A stretch of 64,000 bases of DNA from Sporosarcina ureilytica (GTDB lineage Bacteria; Bacillota; Bacilli; Bacillales_A; Planococcaceae): NCBI RefSeq assembly GCF_001753205.1, contig NZ_CP017560.1, positions 2,480,001 to 2,544,000 of the forward strand, given 5' to 3'. The position numbers and the translations under genes are program-made. Positions within the stretch are counted from its first letter, which is position 1. Every line of letters starts with the position of its first letter. Under the pieces are notes generated by a model. It searched no databases. It saw only the letters and a list, made by a program, of their open reading frames with translations, and was not told the DNA's origin. Shown one piece after another: positions 961 to 60,140 of the stretch.

Positions 961-3900
961 TTAGAACAACGACAATTGATTTGCGTCAGGCATCCCTTCT
1001 AGACAGCCAAGTTCTTCCATATACTCGATGACTGTTTTTGAAACACGACCCCGTTGCTGTAAATCTTCCTTGGATAGGAACTCGCCATCTTTCCTTGCTT
1101 CGACAATCGATTGCGCTACATTCGTACCAAGTGATGGAATTGCATTAAAAGGAGGTATTAATTTATCTCCATCAATAACAAATATCGTTGCATCCGATTT
1201 GTATAAATCTGGCTTCGCAAATGAAAAACCACGTTCACACATTTCCAACGCAATTTCCAATACCGTAAGCAAGTTTTTCTCTTTCGGTGATGCATCAAGG
1301 CCTTTCGCATCAATCTCTTGGATTTTAGCTCGAATCGATGCCGAACCTTTCGTCACTGTCAATAAATCATGGTCAGCAGCTCTGACTGTAAAGTATGCTG
1401 AATAGTAAAGAATCGGATGATGGACTTTAAAATAAGCAATCCGAAGTGCCATTAACACATATGCAGCAGCATGCGCTTTCGGGAACATATATTTAATCTT
1501 TTTACATGATTCAATATACCAATTTGGTACATTTTGTGCTCTCATCGCTTCTTCAAATTCAGGCGTTAGCCCGCGTCCCCTACGAACGGACTCCATAATA
1601 CTAAAGGCAGTCGCAGGTTTCAGCCCTTGGTAGATTAAATAAACCATGATATCATCACGACAACCAATTACGTCAGAGAGCTGACAGACTTTGTTTTTAA
1701 TTAACTCTTGGGCATTTCCAAGCCAAACGTCTGTCCCGTGAGAAAGACCAGAAATTTGAACGAGTTCTGAGAATGTAGTCGGTTTCGTCTCCTCAAGCAT
1801 TTGACGAACGAAACGCGTTCCAAACTCTGGCACACCAAGCGTTCCCGATTTAGTACCAATTTGTTCTGGTGTTACGCCAAGCGATTCTGTGCCACTAAAT
1901 AATTTCATGACGCCTTCATCATCGGGCGGAATCGTAAGTGGATCAATCCCTGATAAATCTTCGAGCATTCTAATCATTGTTGGATCATCATGACCTAGAA
2001 TATCTAGTTTTAACAAGTTATTTTCTATCGAATGGAAATCGAAATGCGTTGTTTTCCATGCTGAATTTAAATCATTGGCTGGGAATTGAATGGGTGTAAA
2101 GTCAAAGATATCCTTTGTATTCGGTACAACGATTATTCCCCCCGGGTGTTGTCCAGTACTTCGTTTAACACCTGAACACCCGATTACGAGACGGTCGATT
2201 TCAGCACCGCGGAAATGGACGCCGTTATCATTCATATACCCTCTTACATAACCGTAAGCTGTACGCTCTGCAACAGTACCAATTGTTCCAGCACGGTAAA
2301 CATAGTCTTCTCCGAATAATTCCTTCGTATAATTATGCGCAATTGCTTGGTATTCACCGCTGAAGTTGAGATCAATATCAGGTACCTTATCACCTTCGAA
2401 ACCTAGGAATGTTTCGAACGGAATATCTTGTCCATCTTTCGTATACAATACATCACAATCTGGACATTTTTTATCAGGTAAGTCATATCCTGAACTTACG
2501 GAACCATCATCGAAGAACTCCGCTTTTTTACAAGTTGGACAAACATAATGCGGTGGAAGTGGATTAACTTCCGTAATTTCCATCATCGTCGCAACAAGTG
2601 AAGAACCAACGGAACCCCTCGACCCAACTAAATAACCGTCGTCGAGTGAACGTTTTACAAGCTTATGGGAAATTAAATAAATTACCGCGAATCCGTGTCC
2701 AATAATGGATTTCAGTTCCTTCTCAATCCGTTCAACGACAACTTCTGGTAACTCTTCACCATAAATTTCATGGGCCATTGAATAAGTTAATTGCTTAACT
2801 TCTTCATCCGCACCTTCAATTTCAGGCGTATACAAATCATCTTTTATCGGTTTGACATCTCCGACTCTTTCTAATATCGCATGAGGGTTGTCGATGACAA
2901 TTTCTTCTGCCACCTGTTCACCGAGGAACGAAAACTCTTTAAGCATTTCATCAGTCGTTCGGAAATGGACTTCCGGTAAGGAATGTCGGTTTAAAGGATT
3001 TGCCCCGCCCTGCGCGCGAACGAGAACTTCTCTAAACTTCGCATCAGTTTCATCGAGATAATGCACATTTCCTGTCGCACAGACTGGTATATCGACCGTT
3101 TTCCCTAGTTTAATGATTTTCCGCATTATATCTTCCATATTCCATTCATCACGGATAAGTTCTAAGTCAATTAAATGCGAATAGACAGCTTTCGGATGAA
3201 TTTCTATATAGTCATAGAACTTCGCAATTTCTTCTACCTCTTCAGGCGATTTTTGCATAAGCCCTTCAAATACTTCACCATTAGAACATCCTGAGCCAAT
3301 GAGTAACCCTTGTCGGTGATTTATAAGTAATGAACGTGGAATTCGTGGCACACGATAAAAATAATCCATATGCGAATAAGATACGAGCTTAAATAAATTT
3401 TTCATCCCAACATCGTCTGTCGCAATAATTGTACAGTGGGACGGTCTAGCACGTTTATAGGTATCGCCTTCTCCAATATGTTTATTAAAATCATCTAAAT
3501 GCGTAATCCCTTTTTCCTCTGCACCTTCTAATAACTTAATAAACAAATACCCCGTTGCTTCCGCATCGTAAATTGCACGGTGATGTTGTGTCAGTTCAAT
3601 ATTGTATTTTTTCGCTAACGTATTTAGTCTGTGATTTCCGAGTTCCGGATGTAGAAAACGTGCCAGTTCGAGCGTGTCGATTACTGGGTACGTAATGCTT
3701 GGGATTCCCGCTTTTTTATAAGCTTCGTATAAGAAGCCCATATCAAATGAAGCGTTATGCGCGACCAGAACAGCGTCCCCTATCCATTCATAATAATCTC
3801 GAACGACTTCATCGACATCCGGAGCATCTTTTACCATATCATCCGTAATCCCTGTCAAATTTGTAATAAGGGCAGAGATTGGTTCGTGCGGATTTGCAAA

Positions 3901-5286
3901 TCGTTCAAATGTATCAATGACTTCTCCGTTTTTAATCTTCACCGCGGCAAGTTCGATAATGGTGTTATAAACAGCTGAAAGTCCGGTCGTCTCTACGTCA
4001 AATACGACAAACGTATCATCTTCAAGTTTACGATGTTGTTCACCGTACGCAATTGGAACACCATCATCGACTAAATTGGCTTCCATACCGAACAATACTT
4101 TTATGCCATGCTTTTTACCGGCTGAATAGGCTTCAGGGAAAGATTGCACGTTGCCATGGTCTGTAATCGCTACAGCAGGATGCCCCCACTTCGCCGCTTG
4201 CTCCACTAATGCTGAAGCCGAAACAACTGCATCCATTTGACTCATTGATGTATGTGCATGTAATTCTATACGCTTTCGATCATTAGGGGCTAAATCTCTT
4301 CGAATCACTGGTGGGATTTCCATAATCGACTGCGCCATCATAATTAAATCTCTAACGAACGTATCATTTTGAATACCGCCACGTGCGCGAACCCATGAAC
4401 CTTTTTTCAAGGAGGACATTAACTTACCGTCTTCCTCATTACGGGAAAACATTTTCACAATAATGGAGTCCGTGTAATCTGTTATTTTAATCGTTAATAA
4501 AGAACGGCCACTCCGTAATTCTCTTACTTCTGTATCAAAAACAAATCCTTCAACTATAACGCTACGCTCTTCATCTTGAATATTTCTTATTTCCATTAGC
4601 GGTTCGTCATGTTTAATAGGTGGTCCCAATTGGAATGGACCAGTTGGAACATCGTCATTTTCTTTACGATTTTGCTCTCTCTTTTGCAAGTCTTCTAATG
4701 CTTTTCGAGCCATCTCTTCCTCTTCTGCTTGACGTTCGATTAGAAAAGCTTTTTGTGCTTCCTCAGCACTGTTCAAATCATCGGTTAGCTGAAAATCAAC
4801 GGCAAGCCTTGGAAAGCCAAACGTTTCGAAAACATCGGAAATAAGTGGTCCGTACTTTGTTTTCATCGTCTGTAATTCCATATCATTCATACAGATGAAT
4901 GTGAGTTTACCACCTGTAATCGTCGGTTTTTGACTTGTTAATCGTTCACGAATTGGCGGTGACATATCTCGTAATTCTTCTATCACATATGGCCAATAAC
5001 CAGCAATTAACAATTCATCCATTACTGGATTTTTACAAACGATGTTCAATTGAATTGTCGCAATTGCAGAAAATGCTTCTCGTATTCTCTGGGTAAAAAC
5101 TGTATAAATTTCGATTGGCAGTAATTTCTCTAATTGGATATTAAATTGCCAAACACGTGATTTACGATGAATGCTCACTCGCTCTAATAATGCATTTTCA
5201 AAATGCACAACAAATTGATCGTCTGTCATATTAATTTGTTGTAATAAGAGATGGAGCTTCATTTTATCGTCTTGTTTACCATCCAC
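961..5286 (-). CDS. polC: DNA polymerase III alpha subunit, PolC type
   Basis: 1441 aa, the usual PolC length (B. subtilis 1437). This is the main replicative polymerase of Firmicutes, with built-in 3'-5' proofreading. Visible in order: N-terminal domain with [12 protein letters not shown] fold; split PHP domain starting [15 protein letters not shown]; DEDDh exonuclease with [18 protein letters not shown] and [12 protein letters not shown]; a four-Cys zinc site (CPTC...CPDC); the catalytic palm with [12 protein letters not shown]; HhH and C-terminal NQLSLF. The start is GTG with AAGGAGGG 6 nt upstream; the next ATG, codon 9, has no ribosome site. It follows proS by 64 bp. All catalytic motifs look intact. 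Confidence 0.98.
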
Positions 5287-5350: not shown

Positions 5351-7057
5351 TTAATTCAAAGTAAAATATGCTTGAAGCTTTTCGGTCACTTCTTCAACCT
5401 GCCATTCGGTTATTTCACCAGTCTCTCGAAATTTCACTTCTAATATTCCGTCTTTCGCTTTCTTCCCGATTGTAATTCGTATTGGCAATCCGATTAAATC
5501 AGCATCTGCAAACTTTACACCTGCACGTTCGGGACGATCGTCGTACAGCACCTCAAAGCGATACGTTTGAAGAAGTTTATACAAATTATCTGCGAGTTCT
5601 TTTTGAATAGCGTCGTTTAAGTTGATTGGCACGAGATGAATGTCATACGGGGATAAGTTTTTAGGCCATTTTAAACCAAACTCGTCATTATACTGTTCAG
5701 CAATCACTGCCATAATGCGAGACACATTCATGCCGTAACGCCCCATAATCATTGATTTTTCGGTCCCTGCTTCATCAATAAAGGTCGCGTTCATTGGCTT
5801 GCTATATGTTGTCCCTAGCGCATCGAGCCGCCCTACTTCAAATCCTTTTGTAAACTTTATTGTGCCAATACCGTCGGGCGCTATATCACCTTCTTCAGCA
5901 TAACGCAAATCCGCATATTGATTCACAGCAAAATCTTTTTCAGGATTGACGTTGAGTAAATGATAATCATCTTCATTGGCTCCAGCTACCCCATTCACAA
6001 TTGCAGCAACTGCAAAGTCTGCAACGATTTTCACACCTACTGGCAATTGCACCGGGCCAATTGAGCCAGGCTCACAAGATAGTAACGTTTTTACTGCTTC
6101 TTCTTCGGCTAATTCGACCGATTGGGCAGCAATTGCATTTTTAAGTTTTATTTCGTTTATTTTATGATCGCCTCGACAAATGACAACGACGATTTCATCA
6201 TCTGCTTTATAAATGAGTGTTTTCATACATTTTTCTATCGAGACGTCTAAAAAATCAGCAACTTCCTGAATGGATCTTTTATTTGGCGTTTTTACTTTCT
6301 CCACTTCATGAAGTATTTCATCTGACTTTTCATAATGATTGCTAACAATTGCCTGTTCCACACTTGTCGCAAATGAACCTGTACTGCTATAGGCAATTTC
6401 CTCATCGCCATTGTTGGCTTTCGCGATGAACTGATGTACACCAAGATTATCCGGCATGCTAGCATCTGAATCAACTATATAACAATCTAGATTCAATTTC
6501 GTGAAAATATTTGAATAGGCTTCTTTCATCTGTTCATAAGTTTCATGTAAACTTTCATCAGAAATATGAAAAGAATAGGCTTCTGATTTCACAAATTCAC
6601 GATTTACTAGTAGTCCAAAACGTGGCCGGGGCTCGTCCTGAAATTTTGTTATTATTTGATACAATGTTAAAGGTAACTGTTTATAGGATTTAACTTCTTC
6701 TTTAATTAATGAAGTCATCAGCTCTGTATGTAGGGCACCTAGTATATAGGTACGATTTCGTTCATCTTGCAAATGAAATAAATCACTACCGTCTCCATCT
6801 ATTTCCATTCGTTCTTGTGACAGCTCGGATTCTTGTAAAATCGGCGTCACCATTTCTACAGCATCAATTGCATCCATTTCTTCACGAATGATCGCTTCGA
6901 TTTTCCTTAATACTTTCAATCCAAAAGGTAAATATGAATAAACTCCACTTGTATGTCGACGTAGAAACCCCGCACGCAATAAAAGTTGATGGGATGTCGT
7001 TTCCACATCAGTTGGATTCTCGCGCAATGTCGGTATAAACGCTCGTGACTGTTTCAT
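5351..7057 (-). CDS. proS: Prolyl-tRNA synthetase homologue with an altered aminoacylation site
   Basis: 568 aa, colinear with bacterial ProRS (B. subtilis 564). ProRS charges tRNA-Pro and edits Ala-tRNA-Pro. The fold is recognisable: N-terminal FIPTLRE and RAGF.RRHTSGVYSYLP, the inserted editing domain (about 225-395) with CMKTLIYKADDE (Lys279), GPVQLPVG and NGVAGANEDD, and the anticodon domain with DDRPERAGVKFADADLIGLP. The synthetase core is altered: LGALHTEL (107-113) replaces LGATHEEV, FQDE (139-142) replaces the motif 2 FRDE, LLVNREFVKSEAYSF replaces LLRGREF.MKDAYSF, and GRYGMNVSR (439-447) replaces GCYGIGVSR. I chose ATG 7057 (AGGTGG 8 nt upstream) over the GTG at 7069. It sits in the normal proS position between rseP and polC. 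It may be a degenerate or repurposed synthetase; a second ProRS elsewhere would then be needed. Confidence 0.85.
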   Translation of the reverse strand: MKQSRAFIPTLRENPTDVETTSHQLLLRAGFLRRHTSGVYSYLPFGLKVLRKIEAIIREEMDAIDAVEMVTPILQESELSQERMEIDGDGSDLFHLQDERNRTYILGALHTELMTSLIKEEVKSYKQLPLTLYQIITKFQDEPRPRFGLLVNREFVKSEAYSFHISDESLHETYEQMKEAYSNIFTKLNLDCYIVDSDASMPDNLGVHQFIAKANNGDEEIAYSSTGSFATSVEQAIVSNHYEKSDEILHEVEKVKTPNKRSIQEVADFLDVSIEKCMKTLIYKADDEIVVVICRGDHKINEIKLKNAIAAQSVELAEEEAVKTLLSCEPGSIGPVQLPVGVKIVADFAVAAIVNGVAGANEDDYHLLNVNPEKDFAVNQYADLRYAEEGDIAPDGIGTIKFTKGFEVGRLDALGTTYSKPMNATFIDEAGTEKSMIMGRYGMNVSRIMAVIAEQYNDEFGLKWPKNLSPYDIHLVPINLNDAIQKELADNLYKLLQTYRFEVLYDDRPERAGVKFADADLIGLPIRITIGKKAKDGILEVKFRETGEITEWQVEEVTEKLQAYFTLN

Positions 7058-7097
7058 ATTTCTAACCACCTAGTGTTTACATTTTATTAAAAGCAAA

Positions 7098-7152: not shown

Positions 7153-8418
7153 CTAACTACTGAAAAAGAATCGTTGAATATCATTCCATGTGACAACAAT
7201 CATTAGAATCATTAGAAGGACAATTCCAACAAAATGAACCATTCCTTCTTTTTGTTTATCAATCGGCTTACCTCTAATTGCTTCAAATAAGAAGAATAAT
7301 AACCTACCGCCATCAAGTGCAGGTAATGGGAGCAAATTCATAATCCCCAAGTTAATACTTAAAATCGCAGCCCAGTGCATTAAATTATAAATACCATATT
7401 GAGCAACTTCTTCCGTTGCTTTATAAATGCCAACGGGCCCCGACAATGCATCAATCGTAAACTTGCCGGTTACGAGCATGCCGAGCAATTCAAATATTCG
7501 TTTAAACCAAGTCCACGTTTGATCTGCACCAAAAACGACTGCTTTAAGCGCATTTTTTTCAACTGGACTTGTGTAAAGAACGCCAATTTGTCCAAACTTT
7601 TGTCCTGCCTCTTCAATCGTAGCAGGGACGACATGTAATTTGACTAAATCACCATTTCGTTCAACTAGGAATGAAAGTTGTTCCCCTGGATGTTTTTGAA
7701 TGATTTCTGCAAATTCGGTCCAAGAAGAAATCGGTGTGTCGTTTACTTCTTTTACAAAGTCACCATCTTGCATGCCCCCTGCATAGGCAGCCCCTGAACT
7801 TTGCACTTCCGTAATCACCGGTTCATTCGTAGGAACGCCTTGTAATAAACCAATTGCCAGGAATATCAAAAAGGATAAAATAAAGTTAAATAACGGCCCG
7901 GCAAATATCGTCATTGCACGGCTTGCTAGTGATTTCGATTCAAATTGTCTATCATAAGGCGCAATAATTGTTTCTTGTCCTTTTTCAATGATGACAGCAT
8001 TTCTTGCAATTGGATAACGGACAAATTCCCCGTCATCACTATATCCCTCTATAAACAACTCTTTATCAAGATCTGATTTTTCTGTTTCCATAAATAAAAT
8101 ATCAGGATTTGATACATTTTGATTTAAATAGATTTTTTCAACTTCACCTGTTTGACCAATATACAGTCCAACCCGATATCCAGGTTGTAATTCGACCGTA
8201 TCAAAATCTTGGCCTGCCATTCGGACATAACCACCAAGCGGCAACAAGCGAATCGTATAGATTGTTTCACCTTTTGTAATGCCAATTATTTTCGGACCAA
8301 ATCCGATCGCAAATTCACGCACCATAATTCCAGCTTTTTTCGCGAATAAGAAATGACCTAATTCATGAAAAAAGACGAGGGAACCGAATACAATGATAAA
8401 CGCAATTACGGTCTCCAT
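7153..8418 (-). CDS. rseP: Site-2 membrane metalloprotease RseP/RasP
   Basis: 421 aa. Intramembrane zinc protease of the S2P family; in B. subtilis RasP cleaves anti-sigma factor RsiW and other membrane substrates. The first membrane segment carries HELGH (residues 19-23), the central part holds a PDZ domain (NEPVITEVQSSGAA... GDFVKEVND), and the third segment carries NLLPLPALDGG with the metal-binding Asp. Four membrane segments are visible. The start ATG has AAGGTGG 6 nt upstream. It lies between dxr and proS, the conserved order. Confidence 0.95.
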   Translation of the reverse strand: METVIAFIIVFGSLVFFHELGHFLFAKKAGIMVREFAIGFGPKIIGITKGETIYTIRLLPLGGYVRMAGQDFDTVELQPGYRVGLYIGQTGEVEKIYLNQNVSNPDILFMETEKSDLDKELFIEGYSDDGEFVRYPIARNAVIIEKGQETIIAPYDRQFESKSLASRAMTIFAGPLFNFILSFLIFLAIGLLQGVPTNEPVITEVQSSGAAYAGGMQDGDFVKEVNDTPISSWTEFAEIIQKHPGEQLSFLVERNGDLVKLHVVPATIEEAGQKFGQIGVLYTSPVEKNALKAVVFGADQTWTWFKRIFELLGMLVTGKFTIDALSGPVGIYKATEEVAQYGIYNLMHWAAILSINLGIMNLLPLPALDGGRLLFFLFEAIRGKPIDKQKEGMVHFVGIVLLMILMIVVTWNDIQRFFFSS

Positions 8419-47387: not shown

Positions 47388-47516
47388 CTAAACGGCGCCC
47401 TGAGCTTTTGTTATCATCCAGCTCTGGACGCCAGTCTTTTGTTATCATCCAGCTCTGGACGCCAGTCTCTCGGGTCATAAGAAATTCAACTATGTGGCCA
47501 AAAACGCGGGCCTACA
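47388..47516. repeat. Family A repeat junction with left arm
   Basis: CTAAACGGCGCC...CTTTTG matches the right end of the complete copy at 55460. It runs straight into GCCAGTCTCTCGGGTCATAAG, the left arm of a second copy, so two elements appear joined head to tail. The left arm also matches 11366-11400. Confidence 0.65.
47405..47466. repeat. Perfect 31-bp tandem duplication
   Basis: The 31-bp unit from 47405 (CTTTTGTTATCATCCAGCTC...) is repeated exactly at 47436-47466. It lies at the boundary of two family A elements. Confidence 0.95.
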
Positions 47517-47635
47517 GGATGTAGGTCATGCAGTCGTTGCGAATCGAACAGCACCAGGGTTCGATTTGCCGTATTTCTGCGAACTTTACAGAAATTATGG
47601 CACTTATTTAGAAGTCGCGCACTTAGACTGCCTTC
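47517..47635. repeat. Family B repeat, copy 1
   Basis: Contains AATCGAAC/GTTCGATT (8-bp inverted repeat), GATTTGCCGTATTTCTGC and an imperfect TTTCTG...CAGAAA palindrome, then CTGCCTTCC. About 115 bp align with copy 2 at 59837-59955 with scattered differences. Confidence 0.8.
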
Positions 47636-47694
47636 CCTTTCAACTTATACTTGTCAAGACTAAAAGGTTCCTCTTTTTCATTTAATTCCCCGCA

Positions 47695-59766: not shown

Positions 59767-60140
59767 TATTTACACCGTCCTTATCTCTACTACGCCCCAG
59801 CGTAATTGCGTCAGGATTTTGAATTGAGGCCAACACGATGTTGGTCATACAACTGTTGCCAATCGAACGGCGCAGGATTCGATTTGCCGTATTTCTGCAA
59901 ACTTTGCAGAAATTAGGGCACATACGAGGACGCGGTGTTCTTAAGTTGCCTTCCTTAACTCCTTTCAAAATCCCTGACACCCACCGGAGGCTTAACTTGA
60001 ATCAGAAATTCATTTGTACCGAAAGCGAAGCAACCGGTACAAGGAATATGAACTCCCTCTAATATTAATTTTTAGCATTGCCCCTGCGCATTTATAGATG
60101 TTGGGGACATTGCTGAATCAAGTTACACTGATAAATAAAT
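59767..60140. repeat. Repeat island between khpA and rimM
   Basis: About 375 bp in the slot where B. subtilis has ylqD. It contains family B copy 2 (59837-59955), a TTGTACCG/CGGTACAA hairpin (60014-60042) and an imperfect GCATTGCCCC...GGGGACATTGC palindrome (about 60075-60113). No gene is seen; a 75-codon minus-strand frame crossing it reads repeat-derived sequence. Confidence 0.75.
59837..59955. repeat. Family B repeat, copy 2
   Basis: Aligns with 47517-47635. Carries AATCGAA/TTCGATT and a perfect 10-bp palindrome TTTCTGCAAA-C-TTTGCAGAAA (59892-59912), then TTGCCTTCC. Confidence 0.85.

Follow-up and report, generated by a model that had tools for sequence, protein, structure and literature searches.

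A prolyl-tRNA synthetase with a degenerate charging site, probably retained for editing beside an archaeal-type ProRS in a Caryophanaceae (Planococcaceae) genome

What does a prolyl-tRNA synthetase (ProRS) do once its charging site has degenerated and the remainder of the protein is intact? This question is raised by a bacterial-type (family II) proS gene in the window, by which we mean the whole stretch of 64,000 nucleotides that was analysed. The gene, recognized as an open reading frame and by its model scores, lies on the minus strand (5351..7057; 568 amino acids plus stop), with an ATG at 7057 (start MKQS...) and the stop at 5351-5353; an in-frame GTG upstream, at 7069, would yield 572 amino acids. 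Its neighbors on the same strand, used here as synteny markers, are presumably rseP upstream (7153..8418) and polC downstream (961..5286), judging by position and sequence. The encoded protein carries three Pfam domains (PF00587, PF04073 and PF03129) and exceeds the NCBIfam cut-offs of proline--tRNA ligase models, scoring 650.8 bits against NF006625 (cut-off 558) and 593.8 bits against TIGR00409 (cut-off 306.7), where 101 normal-scoring copies from the same family reach 744-809 bits. A first-pass annotation had described it as a colinear ProRS that keeps its editing and anticodon domains, has lost the aminoacylation signature, and may act in editing or tRNA binding without charging tRNA-Pro. 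Colinearity is borne out by a gap-free phmmer alignment of residues 1-561 to the Enterococcus faecalis ProRS 2J3L, which carries T109, E111 and R140 and provides the numbering for the substitutions T109L, E111T and R140Q.

We compared the window ProS with 80 bacterial ProRSs from several phyla, fetched by two peptide patterns; the best identity to the window protein among the matches listed was 57%, and no member of the window's own clade was included. Changes affect 25 of the 91 catalytic columns that are at least 95% conserved in these references, as opposed to 2 of 23 conserved columns in the INS editing region and 0 of 16 in the anticodon-binding domain (ABD), a distribution that excludes chance; the references themselves deviate at no more than 10 catalytic columns each, with a median of 0. 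Conservation at residues 134-141 is overstated in this set because one of the fetch patterns spans them, accepting R or Q at 140. The N-terminal catalytic part (residues 1-224; 6386..7057, minus strand), a degenerate class II core with motifs 1 and 2, holds 21 of the 25 changed columns. Within it, the TxE region (residues 106-113; 6719..6742, minus) reads LGALHTEL, with T109L and E111T at positions where T109 and E111 are found in all 80 references, and motif 2 with its loop (residues 136-159; 6581..6652, minus) carries Q136I, R140Q, R151V, M157K, K158S and D159E. None of the 80 references has the window's residues at 109, 111 or 140, and T109, E111 and R140 are invariant in all 44 normal family copies read, which were fetched with a whole-length model. 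We take T109 and E111 of TxE to be the proline-binding site, and R140 of motif 2 to bind ATP. The C-terminal catalytic part (residues 405-464; 5666..5845, minus) adds I406F, F412D, K413A, C440R and G444N. All residues quoted in the first-pass annotation (LGALHTEL, FQDE, LVNREFVKSE, VHQF, EVGRLDALGTTYS, GMNVSR, CMKTLIYKAD and DDRPERAGVKFADADLIGLP) are present as given, with LGALHTEL to be renumbered from 107-113 to 106-113. Its statement that the aminoacylation signature is gone holds for T109L, E111T and R140Q but not for Arg447 of motif 3, E142 and E154, all of which are still there. From these substitutions, prolylation has very likely been lost in the window ProS.

The preservation of the other two domains is equally apparent. 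The INS editing domain with its linker (residues 225-404; 5846..6385, minus; PF04073, 90.8 bits) contains the editing residues K279 (codon 6221..6223, minus), D347, GAN and H366 as well as GPV, and its two changed columns, 231 and 232, lie at the linker; the ABD (residues 465-568; 5354..5665, minus; PF03129) is intact. An AlphaFold2 model built on a 33-sequence alignment (including 32 of the 80 reference loci) has a mean pLDDT of 87.1, and its best PDB matches are bacterial ProRSs (2J3L, TM 0.81; 8W8J, TM 0.88), so that the ProRS fold is predicted to be retained, although such a model cannot show loss of activity. Stretches of at least three residues with pLDDT below 50 are residues 147-151, in the motif 2 loop, and 199-204, a loop beside the altered THEF region. 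Sequencing or assembly error was considered and rejected as the source of the substitutions: exactly L/T/Q at 109, 111 and 140 also occurs in the relative L093 (87% identity), a similar L/K/Q in L303, and synonymous changes predominate.

A genuine ProRS had been expected elsewhere in the genome (3.44 Mb, one contig, completeness 99.99), and a genome-wide search located one: an archaeal-type (family I) protein of 479 amino acids with a full-length TIGR00408 match of 588.9 bits (cut-off 437), which by family membership probably charges tRNA-Pro. A T-box leader lies directly upstream of this gene (L009 2995-3208, minus strand, G000:C1; 108.7 bits, gathering score 93), with a specifier that by eye appears to be CCU (proline), the same as in two aligned homologs. 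T-boxes reach the gathering score at 12 of the 20 archaeal-type proS loci searched; a T-box search of the window found none. Two tRNA-Pro genes, both with a TGG anticodon, were recovered by a pattern that demands C1 and the middle and last bases of the anticodon, so that other tRNA-Pro genes could escape it; the gene whose complete sequence was read carries C1, G72 and A73. PF04073 matches two proteins in the genome, the window INS and a 168-amino-acid YbaK (177.6 bits, TIGR00011), which leaves the archaeal-type ProRS without a recognized editing domain. Other genomes of the family encode a second kind of stand-alone INS-superfamily protein (L128, L133 and L141; 156-202 amino acids, GGVCPFG motif) that falls below the cut-off for YbaK and has other NCBIfam matches, to ProRS and to a second YbaK model, that are also below cut-off; proteins of this type may or may not be a compensating ProXp-ala. 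As a separate observation, the window contains two minus-strand matches to Bacillaceae-1 RNA (47511-47642, 48.7 bits; 59830-59960, 38.5 bits; gathering score 35), each about 131 bases long against a model of 67 positions.

Across 151 genomes of the family, the family II score is bimodal, with 101 copies at 744-809 bits ("normal" by score, 44 of them read), 25 at 479-656 and two at 214 and 224; 22 genomes have no family II copy, and one incomplete genome (G050) has neither type. Family I exceeds its cut-off in 94 of the 151. It accompanies all 27 low-scoring or truncated copies (25 and 2), is present in all 22 gene-less genomes, and occurs beside 45 of the 101 normal-scoring copies, in counts that ignore kinship. 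In the window's genus, g1, family I is present in each of the 17 genomes sampled, and their family II copies are low-scoring in 10, truncated in 2 and normal-scoring in 5. Among three sampled g6 genomes, the two lacking family I have a normal proS and the one with family I has a degenerate copy. Genus g10 contributes 14 low-scoring copies and two genomes without one, while g4 (16 genomes) and g2 (4 genomes) have no family II copy, and the four sampled g2 genomes give no PF04073 match at all. The family I model search covered these 151 genomes and the 329 of a class-wide scan, with the genomes of the 29 g1 sequences added below lying outside it.

Gene order identifies the degenerate gene as the resident one. 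The arrangement rseP-proS-polC is kept in all 40 fetched loci with a copy and in the window, and in every one of the 12 genomes examined among the 22 that lack the gene, rseP is followed by polC with a gap of at most about 0.5 kb. The constant position between rseP and polC led us to reject a horizontal replacement or a duplication of proS. Group g18 of the family includes Metasolibacillus, recognized by a 100% identical proS and classified in Caryophanaceae; for the host of the window, placement is supported to the level of that family, Caryophanaceae (Planococcaceae).

The degenerate state appears to have arisen repeatedly, in agreement with a comparable loss in several lineages of relatives. 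We called a copy degenerate when it had at least 11 catalytic deviations, a threshold set after the distribution had been seen. Trees of 71 family sequences, and of 69 sequences with the catalytic columns removed, each need four changes between normal and degenerate. For g1, 46 proS sequences were read from 68 genomes (17 in the first set and 29 new), and the tree enlarged with those 29 (98 rows; 36 degenerate, 62 normal) needs at least five changes; all these counts are minima on one best tree, in which several degenerate rows have long branches. The five degenerate lineages are the window clade (window, L093 and L303), a 12-member g1b clade, a 6-member clade, g10, and one g6 member. The window clade is nested in a seven-row group with four normal copies, among them L105 (support 99/97). 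Genomes of the 6-member clade contain frames of 492-526 amino acids with a weak match to the C-terminal part of ProRS, as family I gives. One copy counted as normal, L291 (G453), has 8 catalytic deviations with T109, E111 and R140 intact and is sister to a normal copy; it may represent an early stage of degeneration. At the other extreme, L102 and L103 belong with eight further g1 genomes to a clade of 538-amino-acid proS frames (547 in one) whose N-terminal catalytic half is far more eroded; in these two, the members read, the INS and anticodon domains are weaker as well. This clade is possibly a later stage or has a different role, and the two very divergent sequences were excluded from the 69-row tree, the rate fit, the 98-row tree and the set of 36.

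Substitutions in the catalytic domain are mostly lineage-specific (LxT or LxK with Q140; DxA with K140; AxE), but T109S recurs in three lineages, and T109 alone among the conserved columns is lost by half or more of the members in every one of the five. In a first set of 27 copies, T109 is replaced by Ser in 22, E111 is retained in 20 and R140 in 23, the combination S-E-R or T-E-R at 109/111/140 is found in 19, and Arg447 and E154 are retained in all 27. Copies of other clades with S-E-R or T-E-R may therefore be weakened rather than inactive in charging and could still activate an amino acid, and the strong case for lost charging is that of the window clade. These patterns bear on the idea that the window ProS is itself a synthetase of altered substrate or reduced activity that retains the ability to activate proline or a different amino acid. 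The recurrent serine, the frequent retention of E111 and R140, the presence of Arg447, E142 and E154 in the window ProS, and the constraint on the catalytic domain in close g1b pairs (dN/dS 0.007-0.041 in five pairs, low like that of normal pairs), which suggests that the g1b core still does something, would all fit such an enzyme. However, the window clade lacks R140 of motif 2 as well as T109 and E111 of TxE, and apart from T109S the changes differ by lineage, unlike convergence on one new pocket; we regard this as the least probable of the explanations considered.

Outside the catalytic domain, the 36 degenerate copies have changed little. Deviations affect 972 of 3276 catalytic cells (29.7%), 53 of 828 INS cells (6.4%) and 21 of 576 ABD cells (3.6%), compared with 0.6%, 0.4% and 0.1% in the 62 normal copies; the catalytic contrast is partly built in, since the degenerate label itself uses the catalytic count. 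The ABD has no deviation in 24 of the 36, and D347, G359, N361 and R508 are present in all 36, K279 in 34. INS failures do occur, in some g10 copies: H366 is lost in four of the 36 and K279 in two. With the anticodon domain the best-conserved part and YbaK encoded in the same genome, the protein might be a platform that binds tRNA-Pro and does not edit, either presenting it to YbaK for clearance of Cys-tRNA-Pro or sensing uncharged tRNA-Pro. Passages in PMC3973320 and PMC11295145 describe YbaK as gaining its specificity through a ternary complex with ProRS, which would suit the first of these roles. A platform would have no need of the INS catalytic residues, yet D347, G359 and N361 persist in the whole set and K279 in all but two copies, and we consider a pure binding role unlikely.

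Does selection still act on the gene? Between the window and L093 (Nei-Gojobori; dS 0.50), dN/dS is 0.150 for the catalytic domain, 0.141 for INS, 0.057 for the anticodon domain and 0.129 overall, values that place the window proS under purifying selection rather than neutrality. Normal pairs give 0.011-0.061 for the catalytic domain, where computable, and 0.023-0.168 for INS, so that the INS constraint in the window pair is no stronger than in normal pairs. The comparison of editing and catalytic rates that the first-pass annotation had put forward came out in its favor by branch length, the ratio being inverted in the window clade; within the window pair the two dN/dS values are nearly equal, and the anticodon domain alone is clearly lower. 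On a fixed topology of 69 sequences (8 of them g1b members, and distinct from the 98-row set), the catalytic/INS ratio is 0.37 over 89 normal branches and rises to 1.45 on the stem and 1.21 in the crown of the window clade, with 1.17 in the g10 crown, 0.62 in g6 and 0.70 in the g1b crown. The catalytic/ABD ratio is 0.44 on normal branches and 3.08 on the stem and 2.04 in the crown of the window clade. High ratios also occur among normal branches (2.64 on one deep branch; a maximum of 1.22 among 52 with INS length above 0.05), and the catalytic/INS ratio alone is therefore insufficient to define the degenerate class. The gene as a whole evolves quickly relative to its neighbors: identity between the window and L093 is 87% for proS, 97% for rseP and 96% for part of polC, and between the window and the normal L105 it is 64%, 82% and 80%, respectively. 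Of nine normal pairs, all are more similar in proS than in the polC part, and seven are more similar in proS than in rseP; where a degenerate copy is set against a normal one, in L080-L116 and L081-L112, proS does not lag behind polC.

This fast evolution is what would be expected if proS, redundant beside the archaeal-type ProRS, were in slow decay toward loss, with the catalytic domain eroding first and the remainder functionless. Such decay would also account for the clean absence of the gene in sister genera, for the eroded 538-amino-acid clade within the window's own genus, and for a frame with stops in G447, from another family. It sits poorly with the low dN/dS (0.129 overall; 0.057 for the anticodon domain) between two species in both of which the site is already dead. 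It also sits poorly with the order of domain rates: INS outpaces the catalytic domain in normal copies but lags behind it on the branches of the window clade and g10, an inversion that g6 and the g1b crown do not share. All 25 low-scoring copies are open frames without stops, and no g1b copy among the 12 has more than one ABD deviation. The window proS, with an open frame and its low dN/dS, does not have the features of a pseudogene. We judge decay unlikely, if slightly less so than the platform role.

The explanation that we favor, with a probability of roughly 0.6, is that the window ProS is a catalytically dead ProRS retained as a trans-editing factor for Ala-tRNA-Pro, in analogy to archaeal ThrRS-ed. 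In this scenario, the bacterial-type proS native to a Caryophanaceae (Planococcaceae) host would have been decommissioned in place as a synthetase, and the charging of tRNA-Pro would now fall to the archaeal-type ProRS, which has no recognized editing domain. Freed from that task, the resident protein would have lost proline and ATP binding through changes at T109, E111, R140 and some 20 further conserved positions of the catalytic domain, and selection would have kept it at full length as a trans-editing factor. The anticodon-binding domain would hold tRNA-Pro by the GG of the anticodon, the class II core, now dead, would act as a scaffold, and INS, with Lys279, would hydrolyze the Ala-tRNA-Pro made by the archaeal-type ProRS. 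According to PMC3973320 and PMC11295145, INS selects tRNA-Pro solely via the anticodon-binding domain, and K279A is described in the former as a post-transfer-editing-defective mutant of E. coli ProRS. This dependence explains why INS and ABD would be kept together, and it implies that a ProRS without its charging pocket but with its ABD could still edit. Work cited in PMC4787780 indicates that a full ProRS is able to compete with EF-Tu for binding of misacylated tRNA, which it hydrolyzes. A dead core with intact INS and ABD, next to a partner that lacks INS, is the anatomy that we would expect of a trans-editor.

The steps leading to this reading differ in strength. The sequences themselves show that the aminoacylation signature is gone, that the genome encodes another ProRS, that purifying selection acts on the gene, that decay differs by domain, that the degenerate state arose more than once on the best tree, and that the gene still lies at its ancestral locus. 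These findings support the earlier view of a protein that does not charge and has an editing or tRNA-binding role. The loss of prolylation, hydrolysis of Ala-tRNA-Pro, and an editing benefit that would explain retention are what we infer from them. Against an editor, editing seems dispensable in the family, as the gene is missing from g4, from g2 and from two genomes of g10, and family I alone is insufficient for the loss of charging, given 45 normal-scoring copies beside it.

The window ProS can be placed among known systems. It shares with bacterial ProRSs that contain INS (ProS type II, E. faecalis 2J3L) its gene, locus, length, domain order and predicted fold as well as the intact INS and anticodon domains, and differs from them in its missing TxE and motif 2 Arg and its 25 changed catalytic columns. 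Archaeal ThrRS-ed, which NCBIfam names a Ser-tRNA(Thr) hydrolase (NF011500), works beside a separate charging ThrRS, with an amino acid and an editing domain other than those of ProRS. It is likewise synthetase-derived, with an editing and an anticodon-binding domain (as outlined in PMC11295145), whereas the window ProS retains the whole class II core as a degenerate domain. The YbaK model TIGR00011 gives the window ProS 28.1 bits, below its cut-off of 153.25, and the protein has other domains besides. It resembles ProXp-ala in its INS superfamily and in the proposed reaction, that of a stand-alone Ala-tRNA-Pro deacylase, but ProXp-ala is a free-standing single domain that reads the acceptor stem, whereas the window ProS has 568 amino acids and three Pfam domains and is expected to read the anticodon via its ABD (from the account in PMC3973320). 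Another parallel is the Anabaena ThrRS pair T1/T2, in which full-length apo-T1, with its synthetic site off, edits the errors of T2 in trans (described in part of PMC4787780); T1 is switched reversibly by zinc, whereas the loss in the window ProS is fixed in the gene and its partner is a distant ProRS type.

To view the wider class, we scanned 329 Bacilli genomes, which pointed to additional low scorers, and examined 28 of them (29 frames), picked mainly for low best E-values. The notion that the trait is widespread in Bacilli was rejected: T109 and E111 are intact in the frames examined, apart from the exceptions listed here, and low or split scores have other causes. In G428, from another family, proS (L167; 394 bits) has Ala at T109, Arg at E112 and degraded INS motifs and lies beside an archaeal-type ProRS; it is perhaps a further independent case. 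G315 contains a proS remnant, and in G185 the frame ends at a contig edge. L149 (G447) is a normal-looking bacterial proS with stops in frame, of which the longest open piece was read, in a genome with an archaeal-type ProRS. The opposite fate is seen outside the family in L172 (G342), L173 (G429) and L176 (G413), which keep T109, E111 and R140 and have lost the INS motifs; the first two occur beside an archaeal-type ProRS and the third beside a second bacterial-type copy.

Extending the proposal to the family, we suggest the name ProRS-ed for full-length ProRSs that lost charging at least five times beside an INS-less archaeal-type ProRS and are now dedicated, anticodon-guided Ala-tRNA-Pro hydrolases, a generalization to which we give even odds. 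Among known trans-editing factors, ThrRS-ed, AlaX, YbaK and the ProXp families descend from synthetase domains or are akin to them (PMC11295145), and a review of aaRS duplication that is limited to genes with a retained catalytic domain has ProRSx in its ProRS row (PMC9437257). In the literature within our scope, which excludes preprints and most subscription papers, we found no catalytically dead or full-length ProRS fixed as an editor. Where annotation relies on family scores, these proteins are classed as prolyl-tRNA synthetases, which calls for caution. If the proposal is true, there would be a repeatable route from an essential synthetase to a pure proofreader, and its stages would coexist in one family: both enzymes normal, the charging site lost in various ways, the protein eroded, and the gene absent. 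These genomes would then offer natural cases in which trans-editing may have replaced cis-editing, and natural tests of INS and the anticodon domain without a charging site.
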